NCBI RefSeq assembly: GCF_021391675.1
Contig: NZ_CP090095.1
Span: 3,105,501-3,169,500 of the forward strand
Direction: 5' to 3'
Source: Neorhizobium galegae
GTDB taxonomy: Bacteria > Pseudomonadota > Alphaproteobacteria > Rhizobiales > Rhizobiaceae
DNA: 64,000 bases
Made by a program: the position numbers and the translations under genes. Below the pieces are notes generated by a model. That model saw only the letters and a program-made list of their open reading frames with translations, searched no databases and was not told the DNA's origin. Position 1 is the first letter of the stretch. The number at the start of each line of letters is the position of its first letter. Positions 16,459-25,045 of this stretch are shown here, in pieces.

Positions 16459-17481
16459 ATGAACGATCCCTTTAAAGAAGCCGAGCGCCCAAGGAAAGTC
16501 CTCACCGCCTCCGAAGAGGCCGAAGGACGGCTGGATGCCTGGCTGACATCCGTTCTCGACGGCGAGTTTTCGCGAAACCGCATCAAGGCGCTGATCGAAC
16601 AGGGTGCCGTCAGCCTGAACGGCAAGGTCATCACCGAGCCGAAGAAGAAGATCACTGCCGGCGACATCGTCGAGATCGACCTCCCTGAGCCCGAGGATCC
16701 CGAGCCGAAGGGCGAGGATATTCCGCTCGAGGTTCTCTACGAGGATAACGACCTGATCGTCATCGCCAAGCCCGCCGGCCTCGTTGTCCATCCGGGCGCC
16801 GGCAACTGGACCGGCACGCTGGTCAACGCGCTGATCCACCATTGCGGCGCGAGCCTCTCGGGCATCGGCGGCGTCAAGCGCCCCGGTATCGTCCACCGGC
16901 TCGACAAGGATACGAGCGGCGTCATGGTCGCCGCCAAGAACGATATCGCCCACCGCCACCTCGCCGACCAGTTCGCCGACCACGGCCGCTCGGGCCCGCT
17001 GGAGCGCGCCTATCAGGCGGTCGTCTGGGGCCGTCCGCGTGGGCTCAAGGGCACGATCGACGCGCCGCTCGGCCGCGCCGGCGACCGCACCAAGCGCGCC
17101 GTGCAGAAGGAAGACAGCAGCGACGCCCGCGAGGCCATCACCCATTACCAGGTGATGGAACGATTCCACGAAAAGCCGGACGCAACGGCGCTCGCCGCGC
17201 TGATCGAGTGCCGGCTGGAGACGGGCCGCACCCACCAGATCCGCGTGCACATGGCCCATATCGGCCATCCACTGATCGGCGACCAGGATTATTCGGCCGG
17301 CTTCAAGACCAAGGCCAACCTGCTGCCGGATTTCGCCAAAGGCGTCGTCAACCGCTTCCCACGCCAGGCGCTGCACGCCTTCCTGCTCGCCTTCGAGCAT
17401 CCCCGCACCGGCGAAGTGATGGAATTCGAAGCACCTATGCCTGAGGACATGGCAGAGCTGATCGAAGCGCTGAAGGCATGA
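16459..17481 (+). CDS. rluD: 23S rRNA pseudouridine synthase RluD family
   Basis: 340 residues. An N-terminal S4 RNA-binding domain (about 20-85, RLDAWLTSVLDGEFSRNRIKAL) precedes the catalytic RluA/RluD domain. The active-site motif GIVHRLDKDTSGVMV places the catalytic Asp at 149. The conserved TGRTHQIRVHMAHIGHPLIGD follows near residues 255-275. It isomerises specific uridines in 23S rRNA (positions 1911/1915/1917 in E. coli RluD); the exact sites here are inferred. In many alphaproteobacteria rluD directly precedes rpoH (recalled). Here about 6.6 kb of other genes separate them. Confidence 0.92.
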   Translation: MNDPFKEAERPRKVLTASEEAEGRLDAWLTSVLDGEFSRNRIKALIEQGAVSLNGKVITEPKKKITAGDIVEIDLPEPEDPEPKGEDIPLEVLYEDNDLIVIAKPAGLVVHPGAGNWTGTLVNALIHHCGASLSGIGGVKRPGIVHRLDKDTSGVMVAAKNDIAHRHLADQFADHGRSGPLERAYQAVVWGRPRGLKGTIDAPLGRAGDRTKRAVQKEDSSDAREAITHYQVMERFHEKPDATALAALIECRLETGRTHQIRVHMAHIGHPLIGDQDYSAGFKTKANLLPDFAKGVVNRFPRQALHAFLLAFEHPRTGEVMEFEAPMPEDMAELIEALKA

Positions 17482-17551
17482 AACGGGTGGCCTGAGGCAC
17501 CGTCGAAGAGTATATAACTCCCGACATTCACGAGGCATCCCAAGGCCCTCC

Positions 17552-18385
17552 ATGAGCCAGCTCGCCGTCAGAAAGCTCCTCGACACCGACCTCATCAAGG
17601 TCCGCGACGTCGTGTGCAACGGCGAGTGTCGGCACCGGAGCGGCGAGGAATGCTCGCATGCGACGAGCCTCGTCTTCCCCTATCGCGGCGTCTTCATGCG
17701 CCATGTCGGCAGCGACGACACGGTGGCGGAGGCCAACCAGGTCCTGTTCTTCAACTGCGACGAGGCCTACCAGATCAGCCACCCGGTCGAAGGCGGCGAT
17801 TCCTGCCTCAGCATGGACGTGCCCCAAGCAATGCTGGAGGAACTGGTCCCGGCCGAGCACCGCAATCCCAAGGGATCGCGCTTCGTCTTCAACAAGCAGC
17901 GGCTGAGGATCGACGAGCGCGCCCAGGCGCTGGTGGCGCTGCTGCGCCACAGCCTGATGCGCGGCGCCGCCGAGACGCTGGAAGCCGAGACGCTCGCCAT
18001 GACGCTGGTGCGCCGCTCCGTCGGCGTGCGGACCGCCCGCGCGGCGACCGCCAGCGCCGGACGGCAGAAGCTGGTGGACCGCGCCAAGCTTGCCCTCTCC
18101 TCCGATCTCGCGCGCCGCTGGACGCTCGCCGAGATCGCCGGTGAAACCGGCGTCTCACCGGTCTATCTGACCCAGGTCTTCCAGCAGGTGGAGGGCACGC
18201 CGCTCTATCGCTACCAGCTTCGCCTCAGGCTGGCCCGGGCGCTCGACCTGCTCGGCACCTATGACGACCTGACCGACCTTGGCCTCGAGCTCGGCTTTTC
18301 GAGCCACAGCCATTTTTCCTCGGCCTTCCGGCAGGCCTATGGCCGCACGCCGGCGGAATTCCAGCGATTTGCGGGGCTGAGATAG
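17552..18385 (+). CDS. AraC-family transcriptional regulator with a Cys/His-rich N-terminus
   Basis: 277 residues. The C-terminal double helix-turn-helix (about 180-275) is clear: RRWTLAEIAGETGVSPVYLTQ and, for the second helix, LGLELGFSSHSHFSSAFRQA followed by YGRTPAEFQRF. The N-terminal part has an AraC-type sensing domain with FPYRGVFMRHVG. It is preceded by the cluster C22-x3-C26-x-H28-x5-C34-x-H36, and C69 and C85 follow, which could bind metal or act in redox sensing. It is followed on the same strand by a Cys-rich mini-protein and a DUF1127 gene. The ligand and targets are unknown. Confidence 0.88.
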   Translation: MSQLAVRKLLDTDLIKVRDVVCNGECRHRSGEECSHATSLVFPYRGVFMRHVGSDDTVAEANQVLFFNCDEAYQISHPVEGGDSCLSMDVPQAMLEELVPAEHRNPKGSRFVFNKQRLRIDERAQALVALLRHSLMRGAAETLEAETLAMTLVRRSVGVRTARAATASAGRQKLVDRAKLALSSDLARRWTLAEIAGETGVSPVYLTQVFQQVEGTPLYRYQLRLRLARALDLLGTYDDLTDLGLELGFSSHSHFSSAFRQAYGRTPAEFQRFAGLR

Positions 18386-18476
18386 CAGGGCGCAAAGTCG
18401 CTAAAGATTCTGACAGCGGAAGACCCCGGCAAAATGCTTTTCTTCTCCCGTAACGTCCACATCGGGAGATGCCACC

Positions 18477-18638
18477 ATGAAAGAGAACACCTGCGCCGCC
18501 TGCGACTGCGAACTCGATTCGACCCGGATCGCGGTGAAGATCGGCGGCAAGACGGTCGAAGTCTGCTGCGAGGAATGCGCCGAAGCACTGCGGGAAGCGG
18601 AAGTCGCGACCCGCTCAGCCCAGGCAGCCAGCAAATAA
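18477..18638 (+). CDS. 53-residue Cys-rich putative metal-binding protein
   Basis: A small gene with ATG at 18477 and TAA at 18636-18638. The protein begins MKENTCAACDCELDSTRIAV and continues with a compact beta hairpin and VCCEECAEALREAE, so it has C6-x2-C9-x-C11 and C30-C31-x2-C34. This treble-clef-like pair of Cys motifs resembles TRASH/YHS-type metal-binding mini-proteins. GGGAG lies 9 bases upstream of the start. It sits 91 bases after the AraC gene, so it may be its target or partner (inference). Confidence 0.65.
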   Translation: MKENTCAACDCELDSTRIAVKIGGKTVEVCCEECAEALREAEVATRSAQAASK

Positions 18639-18669
18639 ACGGTCGCCAACACCCAAACAACCGACATCG

Positions 18670-18720
18670 AGGCGGGCGACAGCCGCCCGCCTCCTGAACG
18701 CCGGCCGCGGATCGGCCGGC
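18670..18720 (+). repeat. Two tandem GC-rich hairpins in the leader of the DUF1127 gene
   Basis: Stem 1: AGGCGGGC (18670-18677) with GCCCGCCT (18685-18692). Stem 2: GCCGGCCG (18700-18707) with CGGCCGGC (18713-18720). Neither is followed by a T-run. They sit just before the AGGAG ribosome site of the DUF1127 gene, so they could stabilise the transcript end or control translation. Confidence 0.5.
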
Positions 18721-18740
18721 ATCCCTTCAGGAGAAAGATC

Positions 18741-19049
18741 ATGAAGAACGAGAACCGGGCGGTCTTTGACCGCGCATCGGAACGCTATCACCTTGCCTTG
18801 GAGCTGTTGCCAGCGACGAAGCCCAAGCCAGTAGAAACGGAGGATGCGGCAGACGTCGAAACATCATCTCTGCGCCGCCTGATCGCCGTCATCGCGCTGA
18901 AGCTTCGCCAGCACAGTAACCGGCTGGCGCTGCTCGAGCTGACCGATGATCAGTTGAAGGATATTGGCGTTTCGCGCAGTCAGGCCTATGGCGATTTCAG
19001 CCGCTGCCGCCGCAGCGACGCGCACGGGCTGGAACGAAAATGCCTTTGA
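18741..19049 (+). CDS. DUF1127 protein
   Basis: 102 residues. The C-terminal 45 residues form the small Arg-rich DUF1127 domain: NRLALLELTDDQLKDIGVSRSQAYGDFSR. The N-terminal half is a variable linker. DUF1127 proteins in Agrobacterium and Rhodobacter affect RNA turnover, phosphate and carbon metabolism (recalled). AGGAG lies 8 bases upstream of the ATG. The 238 bases that follow are unusually A/T-rich and hold no gene I can support. Confidence 0.82.
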   Translation: MKNENRAVFDRASERYHLALELLPATKPKPVETEDAADVETSSLRRLIAVIALKLRQHSNRLALLELTDDQLKDIGVSRSQAYGDFSRCRRSDAHGLERKCL

Positions 19050-19287
19050 AATCCTGTAGAAATAGGCGAGGCAAAGACATTCCGAAATAAATCTGAGTCA
19101 TGGTCGGAATCGTAGCGACTATCCCACAAGTCAAATCATCGTCAAAGTTTCGCTTTATTTGTCCCTATTGCTGCGGTGCAAAACAAATATCCGCACCATA
19201 AAAATAAAACTCTGGATCAAGCCGTGCATCGAGCGAGATGTATTTGCCGGTTCCACAGAAAATAGAAAACTTAGGGACGCTCAAGAT

Positions 19288-20073
19288 ATGAATTCAAGCC
19301 TCCGGAAGTTCATCTTTCATGACCTGCAGACGATCGAGGGCTATATTGACCCCCCCGACGCGCTGGTTTTCCTGTCTCTTCTGCAGGCACAAAAGAACAA
19401 TGGGTTGGACGGGGGCGTTGCCGAGATCGGCGTCTTCTACGGACGCTCCTATTTCCTTCTGAAGAAGGTCAATAACGGCGAGGACAAGATCCTGGCGATC
19501 GATCTCTTCGATATCGGCCGGGCGTCGGACGGGGCGCCGACGCAATACGGCCAGTTCCTCGCCAATGGCCGGCGGCTGGGTTTGGACGTGGACGAGGAGC
19601 TGATCATCAAGGGCGACAGCACCCTGATGCAGGCCGACGAGATTACCAGCAAGGTCGGCCGCACCCGCTTCTTCAGCATCGACGGCGGCCATACGCTGCA
19701 ACATATCGCGGCCGACAGCCGGCTTGCGACGGACACGCTCGCCGACCACGGCATCATCGCCTTCGACGATACGTTCAATCCCGCCTGGCCGGAGGTGACC
19801 GTCGGTGTCGCGGACTTCCTGCGGGAGCGCAAGGACACGTTCTCGACCTTCTGCATGACCAAGTACAAGACCTATGTCTGCCGCAAAGAATTCCATGAAT
19901 TCTATTTGAAGGCGATCACCGAGGCCTCGGACCTCCTTGCCTTCGACCATGTGGAAACGGAATTCCTCGGCTCGAAAGTGGCACGGCTGCACAATCCGAT
20001 GAGCCGTCGCATGGTCTATGAATTGATGGTACGGTCGGGCATGCGGGCCTTTTCGGAGCGCGTATACCGGTAG
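19288..20073 (+). CDS. Class I SAM-dependent methyltransferase (Methyltransf_24 type)
   Basis: 261 residues. Motif I is GGVAEIGVFYGRSYFLLKKV (about residues 37-56). The acidic ribose contact is KILAIDLFDIG, and a later SIDGGHTLQHIAAD and HGIIAFDDTF give the metal/substrate loop found in cephalosporin-hydroxylase-like and TylF-like methyltransferases. Such enzymes often modify surface sugars or secondary metabolites; the acceptor is unknown. I chose the ATG at 19288 (MNSSLRKF); upstream codons are in A/T-rich sequence with poor coding character. No glycosyltransferase neighbours are present. Confidence 0.78.
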   Translation: MNSSLRKFIFHDLQTIEGYIDPPDALVFLSLLQAQKNNGLDGGVAEIGVFYGRSYFLLKKVNNGEDKILAIDLFDIGRASDGAPTQYGQFLANGRRLGLDVDEELIIKGDSTLMQADEITSKVGRTRFFSIDGGHTLQHIAADSRLATDTLADHGIIAFDDTFNPAWPEVTVGVADFLRERKDTFSTFCMTKYKTYVCRKEFHEFYLKAITEASDLLAFDHVETEFLGSKVARLHNPMSRRMVYELMVRSGMRAFSERVYR

Positions 20074-20332
20074 GCACCGTCCTCTACGGGTTCGCTGAAA
20101 AGCTTGCGGTTCGCCCTCGTAACGGGACAACCCCGTGCGGTCCTTCACCTTTTCGCTGTCTTGTGAAAGCCAGTCGGATTTGCTCTATTTCCGATTGCAC
20201 GGCTGCATGGACCGAATATCCGCCAGCCTTGCAATCGTCGAGGTCGTTGGCTGTCCATCGACGTCTTTCAGGGCGAATAGGCGGGAGGGCATGTTGCGCA
20301 TTGGAGAATGGCATCGGCGATACCGGCTGTCT

Positions 20333-21037
20333 ATGTCCGGTCGAGGGCTGGCAACCGCCTTCCTGTGGCTCGCGTCCATAGCCTCCGTGCCGGCATTCGC
20401 GCAGGAGGTCGCCGTCGCCACGCCGGGGAAAGATTTCCGCGAGAGCTATGACGAAAGCGCTCCGGTCTCAGGAGGCGTGGTCGTCGGCCTGAGGCTCGGC
20501 GATACGCCCGGAAAGCTCGATCCCGACAACGTACGCTTCGCCATGACGCAAAAAACACTGGTATGCGTCCGCGCCCTGACGCGCGACGGCCGCTACTCGG
20601 CCAACAACGAATATACAATCACGAGTACGCAGACGGCGAAAAGCGTCCGGATTTTCCCCGTGACGAAAATCCATGCGGCGGCGCTGGCCGGCTACGATGG
20701 GCGCGACTACGCGCTCAAGGTCTTCGAGGCGAAAGGCAAGGACTGCATTCCGGAAGACGCAGTGCATTTCCCTCAACTCGGACCCCGCGGGAATTCCGAC
20801 GTACTGACTATCATGATCAATGCGAGCTCCCGAAGGGTCAGCCTGGAGGCGCCGGCAGGCGCTACCGATATCGTCTGCGGCGCGCCGGCCGGCGGGGCGC
20901 GGATCGCCTTCGACCAGGAATGCCGGGTCAATATCCACGGCATCCAGGATGAGGTGGCCCGCTTCGTTATCGCCATGGATGACGGCTTCGACACCGAAAA
21001 GGAACCGGTGCTCGTGTCGCTGAGACGCAATAGATGA
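20333..21037 (+). CDS. Secreted protein, first gene of an envelope protease module (unrecognised family)
   Basis: 234 residues. A standard signal peptide (about 1-25, LATAFLWLASIASVPAFA then QE) is followed by a soluble, beta-rich mature protein. It has four Cys residues (LVCVRAL, KDCIPED, DIVCGAP, QECRVN) that could form two disulfides in the periplasm. I do not recognise the family. The start at 20333 gives a compact signal peptide; an in-frame ATG at 20291 would lengthen the n-region, and neither has a well-spaced ribosome site. Its stop overlaps the next gene by four bases (ATGA), and that gene overlaps the protease gene the same way, so the three are a translationally coupled operon. Confidence 0.6.
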   Translation: MSGRGLATAFLWLASIASVPAFAQEVAVATPGKDFRESYDESAPVSGGVVVGLRLGDTPGKLDPDNVRFAMTQKTLVCVRALTRDGRYSANNEYTITSTQTAKSVRIFPVTKIHAAALAGYDGRDYALKVFEAKGKDCIPEDAVHFPQLGPRGNSDVLTIMINASSRRVSLEAPAGATDIVCGAPAGGARIAFDQECRVNIHGIQDEVARFVIAMDDGFDTEKEPVLVSLRRNR

Positions 21038-22047
21038 AGATCGTGGGCAAGCGCGTTTCGACCGGAGCGAAATGGCTGGCAACCGAGGTCGCCAGGTACC
21101 TGAGTACGAAAGGCGCGACGAACCTGATCATCATCGCGCTTATCCTGACCTCCATCGCATTCCTCGCGCTTCGGCAACTGTCCAGATCCGAGCTCTACGC
21201 CTCCGTCGATGCCGTCTCCGAACTGGTGCGCTTCCGCGCGGTCAGGCCGTTGATCGCCACGATCCCGCTGACCGACGCGACGTTGATCGCGTCGGCGGAA
21301 GGCTGCGTCGGATTGGCCGGCGATCCCTCACCGCGCGTCACCGGCCTCCTGCAGCCCTCGGAAGGCGCTATCGTCAGCTATCGCGCCGGCGCCGGCCGGA
21401 TCGCCATTCAGATCGTCGGCGGCAGGCTTGTCAGCGAAAACGGAGCGAGGATCGCGGCCACCTTCCAATCTTCCGGCCGAGCAGACTGCGACCTCGTGGA
21501 GCCCGTGACGGTGCGGATCAACAACGCCGACGAACTGGTCCGGCCGCTGCCGATCGCCGGCCCGGCCGATATCGGACAGGAATTCGGCGTGCCCACCATG
21601 CCGACCGGAACGGCCTCCTCCCGCATCTACGACATCATGTGGGAAGGGCGCGTAAGGGTCTTCAACCGCACCTATTTCAGCGAACGGCTCGTGCCGGTGG
21701 CGGACGCCGAATTTCCGCTTCCCATCGGCAGCCGCCTGTCCGGCGGCGACAACCTGGATCCGAAGCAGCCGGTAGACCCGGCGATTGCCGCCTGGTACGG
21801 CGCCGCGATTCCGGGCGAGAAAGGGTTGCAGATTTCGGCGACGACCATATCGAAGACCCTTCAGCTCTACCGGCCCGGCACCCGCCGGGACGAGATGGAA
21901 ACGCTCGGCCTCAGCCTGCTGACCAGCACATTCGCGGATTCGCTCGCACTCATCATTATCGGCTTTGTCGTCGTGTTCGGCGGCGTGCTGGGAGCCGTCG
22001 CGAGCTGGATGGGACTTTGGCGCAATCCGGAGGAAAAGCACGAATGA
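21034..22047 (+). CDS. Two-helix inner-membrane protein with a large periplasmic domain (unrecognised family)
   Basis: 337 residues. One membrane helix lies near the N-terminus (about 31-47, LIIIALILTSIAFLALR) and one near the C-terminus (about 304-326, LALIIIGFVVVFGGVLGAVAS). They enclose a predicted periplasmic domain of about 250 residues with two Cys (EGCVGLA, RADCDLV). The ends are short and charged (cytoplasmic). No known motif is visible. It starts inside the last codons of the upstream secreted-protein gene (ATGA) and ends the same way in the protease gene, implying a complex in which it anchors two periplasmic partners (inference). Confidence 0.65.
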   Translation: MKIVGKRVSTGAKWLATEVARYLSTKGATNLIIIALILTSIAFLALRQLSRSELYASVDAVSELVRFRAVRPLIATIPLTDATLIASAEGCVGLAGDPSPRVTGLLQPSEGAIVSYRAGAGRIAIQIVGGRLVSENGARIAATFQSSGRADCDLVEPVTVRINNADELVRPLPIAGPADIGQEFGVPTMPTGTASSRIYDIMWEGRVRVFNRTYFSERLVPVADAEFPLPIGSRLSGGDNLDPKQPVDPAIAAWYGAAIPGEKGLQISATTISKTLQLYRPGTRRDEMETLGLSLLTSTFADSLALIIIGFVVVFGGVLGAVASWMGLWRNPEEKHE

Positions 22048-23174
22048 GGCGCTTTTCCCGTCCAATCGGCATTGCATTGGGACTTGCTGCCCTGCTTCTC
22101 TCCGACGCCCGGGCGGAACCCGTATCGGTCCGCTCGCGCAATGGCGAGATCGGGCAGGCCTGGCTGTTCGGCTCGGCAGGCATCAATCCCGGCGAATGCT
22201 GGCTCGCCGTTCCCGCCCATGTCGTCGCCTCGCCGGAAACCAAGGAGTTGCAGCCGTTCTTCTTCACCGATCGGAATGCGGTGGGCGGAGAAAGCGCACG
22301 ACCGGTCTCCGGCGCCATCGATGCTCCGAAGACGCCCATGGAGGAGCGCGCCGCCGACCTCGCCTTCGCCCGCGTCGCAAGCGGACGCAAGGACGGCGCC
22401 TGCCTGTCACGGCTCGGCCCGCCCACCTTCGTCTACAACAACCTGCTTGCCTCGGCTCCGCGCATGAACGTCTTCAGCATGCTGAGGACCAGCTACGGAA
22501 ATTTCGAAGTGGCACTGAAGCGCGGCGGCGTCGATGAATTCGGCGGCGCCATCCTGCAGTTCCAAGTGCCCGACCCCGCCGACAAGAGCTTTCTGCAGAA
22601 AGGGCTCAGCGGAGCGATCGTCATGAGCGAGCGCTCCGGAAGCCCTGTCCCCTTCGCGATGATCACCCGGGTACCGGCCGATCAATCCGGCGTCATGGCG
22701 ATACGCTTCGACTACATCCGCGAGCGGTTTGCGGCGATCGACAGTCACGACTCCGCAAAGCGGCGCGGCAGCCGCGCGGCCGGCGATGGCGTGCCGTATA
22801 CCGTGTTGGGCTACACCGCGCTGCTCCTGAAGGGCAGCGACGGCCCCTCCGCGCTCCAGTCGGGCTCCGGCTGCTTCCGGGCCGCGGCGGACGGCGGGCG
22901 CAGCGACATCGAACTGATGATCGAACTGGCCGACAAACTTGACCGGATCGAGACGATCGAACTCCAGCACCAGGGAAGCTGCGCCGGCACACCAAAGACA
23001 TTCTGGGTCGAGGAGCGCCGGCCGGGAGACGGCGCCTGGAACTATGTCGGCAAATGCCAGACCGGCAGTGCCGGGGCACCCCCGTGCCGCGTCAACCTCA
23101 ACGGACCTCGGCAGCTTCGCCTGCGGATCGAGGCGAAGGAACCGGTAAGCCTGTCCGGCATGAAGCTGCGCTGA
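22044..23174 (+). CDS. Periplasmic trypsin-fold serine protease-like protein with a C-terminal beta domain
   Basis: 376 residues. The signal peptide spans about 1-24 (ALGLAALLLS, ending ARA). The chymotrypsin-type order H-D-S is visible: H59 in LAVPAHVVAS, D105 in RAADLAFARV and S189 in QKGLSGAIVM. The usual GxSGG is GLSGA here. The C-terminal 110 residues (from about 265) are a Cys-rich beta domain with four Cys, resembling a discoidin-like sandwich. I chose the ATG at 22044, which overlaps the upstream stop. It is the last gene of the three-gene coupled operon and converges with a fourth exported-protein gene 10 bases away. Substrates are unknown; activity is inferred from the triad. Confidence 0.65.
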   Translation: MRRFSRPIGIALGLAALLLSDARAEPVSVRSRNGEIGQAWLFGSAGINPGECWLAVPAHVVASPETKELQPFFFTDRNAVGGESARPVSGAIDAPKTPMEERAADLAFARVASGRKDGACLSRLGPPTFVYNNLLASAPRMNVFSMLRTSYGNFEVALKRGGVDEFGGAILQFQVPDPADKSFLQKGLSGAIVMSERSGSPVPFAMITRVPADQSGVMAIRFDYIRERFAAIDSHDSAKRRGSRAAGDGVPYTVLGYTALLLKGSDGPSALQSGSGCFRAAADGGRSDIELMIELADKLDRIETIELQHQGSCAGTPKTFWVEERRPGDGAWNYVGKCQTGSAGAPPCRVNLNGPRQLRLRIEAKEPVSLSGMKLR

Positions 23175-23184
23175 GGTCGGCGCG

Positions 23185-23865
23185 TCAAAGCAGCTTGGCG
23201 GACACCGCGAAAGGCCAGGCATCCGCGCATTGGAACGTGCCGGCAAGTTCGGAACCGGCCTTCAACTGGATGTTGAGCGAACACTCGCCCTGCGGCAGGT
23301 TGGCCCGGCCGAGCCAGGTCAGGCGGGAGCCGACGATGGTCGTCTTTCCCTTGTAATTGTTGTTTCGGTCATTGAGGCCCACCATCGGATACCAGACTGA
23401 ATTGCTCGTACCCGGTTCGGCTCCGTCAATCTCGAAGATCAGGCCGTTCTGCATCAGCTGCCAGCTGCGCATGATGTACGAGCGCTCCAGTTCGGCCATC
23501 TTCTTCTCGTTGCCGGACGCGGCCTTGATGGCCGCCGTGAGCTGGGGCGGGATCTCCACCGAGAAGCGGATCTGCGGCAGGGTCGCTACGGCGGTGCGCA
23601 GTCCGAGATTGCGAATATCGGCATTGTCGCTGTCGAGCGCGAGGCGGGTGCAGATGCGCTGGATGGCAGCGTCACCCCCGGCGACCGCCTTCTCCACATA
23701 GGCAAGCCGCAGGTCCGGATCCGGATCGTTGCATTGCTCCCGCCAGGCCTTGAGCTCTCCGGCCCGATCCTGGGCATCCTGCGCCAGTGCCAGCGCCGGC
23801 GCAAACAAAACGAAAAACATCGCCAGACCCCTGGCGCGGCGCATCCCGGAAGCACGTTTTTTCAT
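23185..23865 (-). CDS. Exported protein convergent to the protease operon (unrecognised family)
   Basis: 226 residues. The signal peptide spans about 1-28 (LAMFFVLFAPALALA then QD). The mature part has a helical N-terminal half (ELKAWREQC, LRLAYVEKAVAGGDAAIQRIC) reminiscent of short helical repeats and a beta-rich C-terminal half (GQ-type strands, GRANLPQGECSLNIQLK, GTFQCADAWPF) with paired Cys. I do not recognise the family. I chose the ATG at 23865; the longer frame begins in A/T-rich non-coding sequence. Being exported, Cys-paired and adjacent to the protease genes, it may be their substrate, inhibitor or partner (inference). Confidence 0.65.
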   Translation of the reverse strand: MKKRASGMRRARGLAMFFVLFAPALALAQDAQDRAGELKAWREQCNDPDPDLRLAYVEKAVAGGDAAIQRICTRLALDSDNADIRNLGLRTAVATLPQIRFSVEIPPQLTAAIKAASGNEKKMAELERSYIMRSWQLMQNGLIFEIDGAEPGTSNSVWYPMVGLNDRNNNYKGKTTIVGSRLTWLGRANLPQGECSLNIQLKAGSELAGTFQCADAWPFAVSAKLL

Positions 23866-23964
23866 AGCACCTGTCCCCTCGTAGCAAGCCATTGCTGGCG
23901 CAGATCCCCTCCTATCGTTAAATTGCAAGTCGGGTGCTTTCAATACCAACAATCGAAGCAGATA

Positions 23965-23982
23965 CATTACTAAAACGTAATG
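23965..23982. promoter_or_regulatory. Inverted repeat between the exported-protein gene and rpoH
   Basis: CATTAC-N6-GTAATG, perfect 6-bp arms in an A/T-rich stretch about 100 bases upstream of the minus-strand exported-protein gene. It could be an operator for that gene. CTTGAA at 24003-24008, overlapping a GAATC site, resembles the -35 of a heat-shock promoter and may belong to rpoH, but the -10 is unconvincing. Confidence 0.35.
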
Positions 23983-24142
23983 ATATAACGCTTCCGTGAT
24001 CACTTGAATCACTGTTCTGCCGTACTTATCTGTCACTTGGGTCGGTGTGGGGTCGAAAATGACCCGCGCCGCTTGGCTCGCCTTCAGCATGCACAGCTAG
24101 ATCAAAAAGGGAGCCGATATATAGATCGGAAAGGGGTGCTTT

Positions 24143-25045
24143 ATGGCCCGCAATACTCTGCCTTCCATTACCGCCGGTGAAGCCGGCCTCAACCGCTATC
24201 TCGACGAAATCCGCAAGTTTCCCATGCTGGAACCGCAGCAGGAATACATGCTGGCGAAACGGTATGCCGAACATGCCGACCGGGATGCGGCCCACAAGCT
24301 GGTCACCAGCCATCTGCGTCTCGTGGCGAAGATCGCCATGGGTTATCGCGGTTATGGCCTGCCGATCGGCGAAGTCGTGTCCGAAGGCAATGTCGGCCTG
24401 ATGCAGGCCGTCAAGAAATTCGACCCGGAACGCGGTTTCCGCCTGGCCACCTATGCCATGTGGTGGATCAAGGCCTCGATCCAGGAATACATCCTGCGCT
24501 CGTGGTCGCTCGTGAAAATGGGCACCACCGCCAATCAGAAACGCCTGTTCTTCAACCTGCGTCGGCTGAAGGGCAAGATCCAGGCGATCGACGAAGGTGA
24601 TCTGAAGCCCGACCAGGTGGCTGAAATCGCCACCAAGCTGAACGTCTCCGAGGAGGAAGTGGTTTCCATGAACCGCCGCCTTTCGGGCGACGCCTCGCTG
24701 AACGCGCCGATCCGCGCCACCGAAGGCGAATCCGGCCAGTGGCAGGATTGGCTGGTGGACGACCACGAAAGCCAGGAAGCAGTGCTGATCGAGCAGGACG
24801 AGCTCGATACGCGCCGCCGCATGCTGGCCAAGGCCCTGAGCGTGCTGAACGACCGCGAACGCCGCATCTTTGAAGCGCGTCGTCTTTCCGACGATCCGGT
24901 GACGCTCGAGGAGCTGTCGTCCGAGTTCGATATCAGCCGCGAACGCGTCCGGCAGATCGAAGTCCGTGCCTTCGAAAAAGTGCAGGAAGCCGTTCAGAAG
25001 GAAGCGCTCGCCCAGGCGAACGCCCTGCGCGTCGTCGACGCGTAG
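24143..25045 (+). CDS. rpoH: Heat-shock sigma factor RpoH
   Basis: 300-residue sigma-32 family factor that directs RNA polymerase to heat-shock and stress promoters. Region 2 (about 50-120) contains LVTSHLRLVAKIAMGYRGYG, EGNVGLMQAVKKFDPERGFRLATYAMWWIKASIQEY. The RpoH box lies near residues 132-140 (QKRLFFNLR). Region 4 (about 225-285) has LEELSSEFDISRERVRQIEVRAFEKV. The sequence corresponds to RpoH1 of rhizobia. A GGGGTG ribosome site lies 8 bases upstream of the ATG. A strong UUCG-loop terminator follows the stop. Confidence 0.97.
   Translation: MARNTLPSITAGEAGLNRYLDEIRKFPMLEPQQEYMLAKRYAEHADRDAAHKLVTSHLRLVAKIAMGYRGYGLPIGEVVSEGNVGLMQAVKKFDPERGFRLATYAMWWIKASIQEYILRSWSLVKMGTTANQKRLFFNLRRLKGKIQAIDEGDLKPDQVAEIATKLNVSEEEVVSMNRRLSGDASLNAPIRATEGESGQWQDWLVDDHESQEAVLIEQDELDTRRRMLAKALSVLNDRERRIFEARRLSDDPVTLEELSSEFDISRERVRQIEVRAFEKVQEAVQKEALAQANALRVVDA

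Follow-up and report, generated by a model that had tools for sequence, protein, structure and literature searches.

The analysis presented here concerns a compact cluster of four protein-coding genes, designated A to D, in Neorhizobium galegae (assembly GCF_021391675.1, genome size 6.05 Mb). The cluster lies within the window, that is, the whole stretch of 64,000 nucleotides analysed (contig NZ_CP090095.1, positions 3,105,501 to 3,169,500), and coordinates refer to the window unless preceded by the handle of another locus. Genes A, B and C share one strand and overlap through ATGA at 21034-21037 (A/B) and 22044-22047 (B/C), and gene D converges on C from the opposite strand across a gap of 10 bp (Table 1). 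The coordinates of the open reading frames (ORFs) thus bear out the coupled arrangement described in an initial annotation of this DNA. That annotation had gene A begin at 20333, yielding 234 amino acids. The reading of A as a coding gene for an exported protein holds, and its start is probably at 20291 instead, since a GGGAGGG stretch lies just upstream of the ATG at that position, a database protein of 248 amino acids that is 99% identical to A (P0027) begins at the matching residue, and the methionine encoded at 20333 is replaced by isoleucine in P0027 and in two homologous loci (L002 and L003).

Table 1. Coordinates of the four genes, the catalytic codons of gene C and the cassette as a whole in the window.
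Feature	Position	Strand	Description
Gene A	20291..21037	+	exported, 248 aa; start by GGGAGGG and database homologue
Gene B	21034..22047	+	membrane protein, 337 aa, two predicted transmembrane helices
Gene C	22044..23174	+	exported, predicted trypsin-fold serine protease with C-terminal beta domain
Gene C catalytic His59 codon	22218..22220	+	kept in 19/19 aligned loci
Gene C catalytic Asp105 codon	22356..22358	+	kept in 19/19 aligned loci
Gene C catalytic Ser189 codon	22608..22610	+	kept in 19/19 aligned loci
Gene D	23185..23865	-	exported, 226 aa, converging on C; in 17/20 intact loci
Whole cassette	20070..23962	.	3,893 bp; missing from a relative's empty site (L074, genome G001)

Comparison of the window with two Neorhizobium loci gave higher ratios of nonsynonymous to synonymous substitution rates (dN/dS) in A (0.30-0.32) and B (0.21-0.29) than in C (0.10-0.11) and D (0.08-0.15), with values of 0.01-0.04 for rpoH and rluD. 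A and B are therefore the fastest changing of the four, and the overall range of 0.08-0.32 indicates that A to D are real genes. The two loci compared belong to the named records in which a genome-contig scan detected the locus, Neorhizobium galegae and N. vignae, with C 93% identical in both. A promoter and terminator scan revealed no excess with respect to shuffled sequences.

The four genes recur together well beyond the genus. Across the Alpha- and Gammaproteobacteria, 20 intact loci were identified, the window included, with A, B and C present in all of them and D in 17; two further loci (L031 and L085) are incomplete. The intact set comprises the window, L002, L003, nine loci outside Neorhizobium retrieved with profiles of C (L008, L009, L010, L015, L016, L017, L020, L024 and L025), three plasmid loci, four loci obtained with a profile of A, and L084. 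A, B and D lie beside C in all nine loci outside Neorhizobium. Three of these (L020, L024 and L025) did not contribute to the profiles used to find A, B and D; the remaining six did, although their A, C and D had been recognized beforehand by means of the first profile of C or sequences from the window, with B recognized by the window sequence in L008 and L009 only, and with L016 and L017 first picked up by a short match of fewer than 60 residues. Among the plasmid loci, Pseudoalteromonas shioyasakiensis p1 (L028) repeats the window's layout of A-B-C with D converging on C, Vibrio tubiashii pFP31 (L029) presents the order C-A-B and Vibrio sp. 09022 p09022A (L030) the order A-B-C, both without a D match. 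The A profile detected 4 of 369 gammaproteobacterial genomes, namely G1061, which harbors L020 and was represented in the profile, and three new genomes with four places (L038-L041), where B and C adjoin A in every case and D in three. The last draw returned 3 of 159 genomes, among them G1061 again, and contributed the intact four-gene locus L084 as well as L085. The latter (L085:8400-11405) encodes A and B without a C match, and by eye an ORF of transposase-like appearance adjoins a tail-like one immediately ahead of A. The other incomplete locus (L031:9902-10174) is a piece of A on a Vibrio casei plasmid, with a gene for an IS3 transposase on one side and one of lrgB type on the other.

The arrangement of the genes is not uniform: A-B-C occupy one strand in 15 loci, A-B are divergent from C in three (L016, L017 and L025), and the orders C-A-B (L029) and C-D-A-B (L020) occur once each. 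Shared membership is hence not just a by-product of recent common descent. D lies tail-to-tail with C in 16 of its 17 loci, and in L020 it is collinear with the other three genes, all on the same strand. The pairwise distances of the four proteins are correlated (r = 0.77-0.85, Mantel P≤0.0005, not corrected for the species tree) over 16 loci, or 12 for pairs involving D, using the first 260 residues of C and excluding L084 and the near-duplicates L002, L003 and L017. The co-localization of homologues across loci rules out a scatter of unrelated neighbors, and the joint recurrence in 20 intact loci, together with the dN/dS values, places the observation beyond chance. That the four genes form one unit is therefore strongly supported, in agreement with the single coupled module put forward in the initial annotation.

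Within this broad range, the distribution is highly sporadic. C was detected in 1 of the 60 nearest genomes, which is the window's own, and in none of 35 others of the genus. Wider draws, each of which counts the window's own genome, gave 4 of 397 genomes for the order, 4 of 385 for the class and 3 of 398 for the phylum; three small families, with the central genome counted, had it in 3 of 7, 1 of 10 and 2 of 3. These tallies, and that of the A profile, are lower bounds, as the large draws scored just the top candidates of each genome: 4 for the order and the phylum, 5 for the class and 7 for the A profile. In the window the module sits between rluD and rpoH, an interval that carries variable cargo among relatives of the genus, and none of ten fetched stretches upstream of rpoH (out of 39 other genomes of the genus with rpoH) contains it. 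The comparison of ten relatives outlines a cargo hotspot at 17481-24143, filled elsewhere by one or more of an AraC-type gene, a methyltransferase gene and a small gene resembling the one at 18741-19049, with three of the ten holding none of the window's cargo. In one close relative (L074), rpoH comes immediately after the methyltransferase gene: the homology with the window ends at 20069, within the last codons of that gene, and restarts at 23963, with 18 bp in place of the 3,893 bp that span A to D and their upstream regions. Since this empty site holds none of A to D, D is part of the unit. Its recurrence beside C, its in-line position in L020 and its joint presence or absence with A to C rule out a chance neighbor and uphold the earlier assignment of D to the module. 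No target-site repeat is evident at the junction, and the difference between the window and L074 may reflect a gain in the former or a loss in the latter, as a single pair is compatible with both.

Further signs of mobility come from other loci. In L020, the module lies between direct repeats of 443 bp, 92% identical, of the 3' part of a helicase gene (L020:5859-6301 and L020:10851-11293). A large ORF about 3 kb beyond these repeats appears recombinase-like by eye and has no Pfam match. Searches of plasmid records returned matches for C of L020 and for A of L029 and L030, and none for the window or L008 proteases or for A of L020; the L028 protease matched itself alone. Phage records, queried with the L020 protease only, gave no match. 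Taken together, the four genes are best explained as a self-contained, horizontally moving envelope module.

The predicted structure of C comprises a trypsin-fold domain at about residues 25-237, with the double beta-barrel of clan PA, and a C-terminal beta domain at about residues 252-375. The catalytic residues H59, D105 and S189, first proposed from the window sequence, are located at those positions and are kept in 17/17 and 19/19 C proteins in two alignments. The glycine two positions before Ser189 is present in 19/19 in one alignment, and one of 17 proteins in the other (P0004) has methionine instead. Pfam Trypsin_2 was matched by 3 of 18 C members, and none of the 18 matched a PDZ domain up to E 1. 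By its modelled fold, C is a divergent trypsin-fold protease, and it is presumably active. Among solved structures, VIA lists DegS, DegP and DegQ as the closest folds, with VesB and VesC absent among the 50 rows listed, an absence that weighs neither way, and Foldseek ranks VesC and VesB first and third (E 1.3e-7 and 2.1e-6), with alignments of 8-9% identity and whole-alignment root-mean-square deviations of 16-19, which indicate a different domain placement.

The region following the protease domain varies widely across loci. The tail is a predicted beta domain in the window, consists of pentapeptide repeats in L040 (E 1.9e-20), resembles F5/8-type-C (discoidin-like) domains in L039 (E 1.6e-4, below the cut-off) and SH3_3 in L020 (E 6.5e-5, below the cut-off), and appears by eye to be made of repeats in L029 and L030, with Pfam DUF7258 placed four times in the latter. 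Of the four short gammaproteobacterial tails, those of L028, L038 and L041 did not reach E 0.001 for F5/8-type C. Two module copies that differ in their C tails occur in one genome (G1287), one with D (L039) and one without (L040). Where a D match is missing, the C gene is about twice as long: C spans 846, 666 and 859 amino acids in the three loci without D (L029, L030 and L040) versus 289-385 in the 17 loci with D. This apparent mutual exclusion, based on few independent events, suggests that D and an extended tail of C serve one function, the former in trans and the latter in cis.

The remaining proteins are less readily classified. A has a hydrophobic, signal-like start followed by about 210 amino acids with four cysteines, every one of them conserved in 90% or more of the 16 homologues aligned. 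D, with a weakly HEAT-like helical part and a second part, also contains four cysteines in the window, some of which are lost in homologues elsewhere. The cysteines noted for A and D are thus present, and calling these proteins Cys-rich overstated the case. B presents exactly two hydrophobic transmembrane (TM) segments in 19/19 loci; in the window model (predicted local distance difference test score 78.5) these lie at residues 27-49 and 303-325 and flank a beta-rich domain, which is taken to be periplasmic. No Pfam or NCBIfam match was obtained for the four window proteins up to E 1, relatives of A and B reached no family, and hhalign detected no homology between A and B or between A and D. 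Among the PADLOC 2023 system models there was none for A and C, and B and D gave matches at E 0.05 only, taken as chance. Weak hits to PADLOC, Pfam and PDB sequences, whether by the window proteins or by their relatives, were set aside as evidence. The initial view that three of the proteins belong to no recognizable family therefore stands for A and B; D has weak matches only, HEAT-like among others, and C is a divergent trypsin-fold protein.

Several known systems share features with this module. C resembles the HtrA family (DegS, DegP and DegQ) in its predicted fold and differs from it in having another beta domain in place of a PDZ domain, and in occurring always with A and B as a sporadic cassette. 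The Vibrio cholerae secreted serine proteases VesC and VesB, alike in the trypsin domain, also have a C-terminal beta domain after it; they differ in their low identity to C and in domain placement, and we know of no A-, B- or D-like partner for them. In regulated proteolysis of the DegS-RseA type, a trypsin-fold protease acts next to a membrane protein whose outer domain is large, as C stands beside B; window B departs from this scheme in its two TM helices and short ends (26 residues ahead of the first helix and 12 behind the second, some relatives having longer ones), with no family match that would denote a cytoplasmic anti-sigma domain, and the module lacks a site-2 protease. Two-TM channels of the P2X or DEG-ENaC-like type were also considered as possible counterparts of B. 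MoxR-vWA ternary and related conflict systems place trypsin-like peptidases in compact, variable operons centred on the nucleoside triphosphatases (NTPases) MoxR, vWA and STAND (PMC7159879). The module is alike in its peptidase and its compact, variable operon and differs in that the NTPases are not found among A to D, all of which look exported or membrane-bound. MoxR, vWA and Trypco gave no match among A to D or the scanned relatives, with flanking genes scanned in part or covered as named records. Among the titles and abstract openings that searches of the open-licence PMC literature listed, none seemed to concern this module. The fold of C is already known, no curated family covers A, B or D, and the unit is apparently undescribed. 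Given their joint spread as a compact cassette among distant bacteria, the four genes very probably constitute one undescribed envelope system.

Regarding its role, we tentatively favor a mobile sentinel that responds to damage or invasion of the envelope, with C acting upon B or jointly with it. In this scheme, C is the exported protease of predicted trypsin-type fold, carrying all three residues of the H-D-S triad ahead of an exchangeable tail, B sits in the membrane with its beta-rich domain between the two TM helices, and A and D are exported partners, presumably all in the periplasm, where the four may form the physical complex suggested earlier. A, D and the tail of C itself would restrain or direct the protease; on a trigger, possibly an envelope attack, C would cut B, as its partner or substrate, or A bound to B, and B would change state in the inner membrane through opening, signalling or killing. 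A link to defence is suggested by a restriction-like helicase near L028 (PADLOC mREase_IV, E 3.2e-205), a helicase with weaker restriction-like PADLOC matches at L020, recombinases and restriction-modification genes near L030, and integrase, insertion sequence and toxin-antitoxin genes around the L031 remnant. Weighing against it are the ordinary neighbors at L008, L009, L010, L015, L016/L017 and L084 and the fact that 5 of 10 scanned flanking proteins lack any PADLOC match, the neighborhoods as a whole being set against no baseline. Together with the sporadic cassette and the variable tails, which speak against a housekeeping part, this mixture of neighbors leads us to place the sentinel first, tentatively. 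A bolder immunity version, which we consider unlikely, has an undescribed system whose protease, through an exchangeable recognition tail or D instead, senses surface attack and cleaves two-TM B; B, sharing its outer domain with A, would then depolarise the inner membrane or signal across it, so that a protease-gated two-TM effector would act before anything enters the cytoplasm.

A possible, somewhat less probable account is envelope quality control, with C as an HtrA-like periplasmic protease, B as a scaffold and A and D as substrate adaptors that together clear damaged proteins, the whole having spread horizontally as a niche gene. The DegS, DegP and DegQ folds and the ordinary surroundings of several loci agree with it, as does the adjacent rpoH in the window, possibly by chance given that the same interval carries other cargo. 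A housekeeping part is nonetheless disfavored by the sporadic cassette, seen both among the nearest genomes and across the order, and by the variable C tails, both features foreign to housekeeping proteases, and the absence of PDZ domains also speaks against it. Maturation or display, whereby C would trim A, and perhaps D, for assembly on B into a structure at the surface or in the periplasm, for example an adhesin, a pore or an accessory to a transporter, is improbable: A and D are small and exported-looking, gene A overlaps gene B at 14 of the 20 loci (some starts having been chosen manually) and some C tails resemble binding domains, but no outer-membrane or export component accompanies the four genes. 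Least likely of all is a toxin-immunity pair in which C and its recognition tail attack neighboring cells while D, or A-B, protects the producer, since the variable tails, the exclusion between D and long tails, an umbrella-toxin complex (9oee) at Foldseek rank 15 and a type VI secretion locus about 4 kb from L029 are offset by the general trypsin fold behind the umbrella and other Foldseek matches, the lack of an encoded secretion route and the constant presence of a two-TM partner.

A, B and D are without a curated Pfam family and are nevertheless coupled to a single protease across bacteria as distant as Neorhizobium, Tistrella, Pseudoalteromonas and Vibrio (D being missing from the Vibrio loci). 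The cassette is small and tractable, with a predicted active site and a natural empty site as a control, and the key question is what C targets and what triggers cutting. To our knowledge, exported mobile modules whose action is confined to the envelope have been charted far less than those of the cytoplasm. Should this one prove to be a defence or damage sentinel, it would add an envelope-side layer; should it serve quality control, it would represent a new variant of the HtrA-like kind, equipped with a membrane partner of its own.
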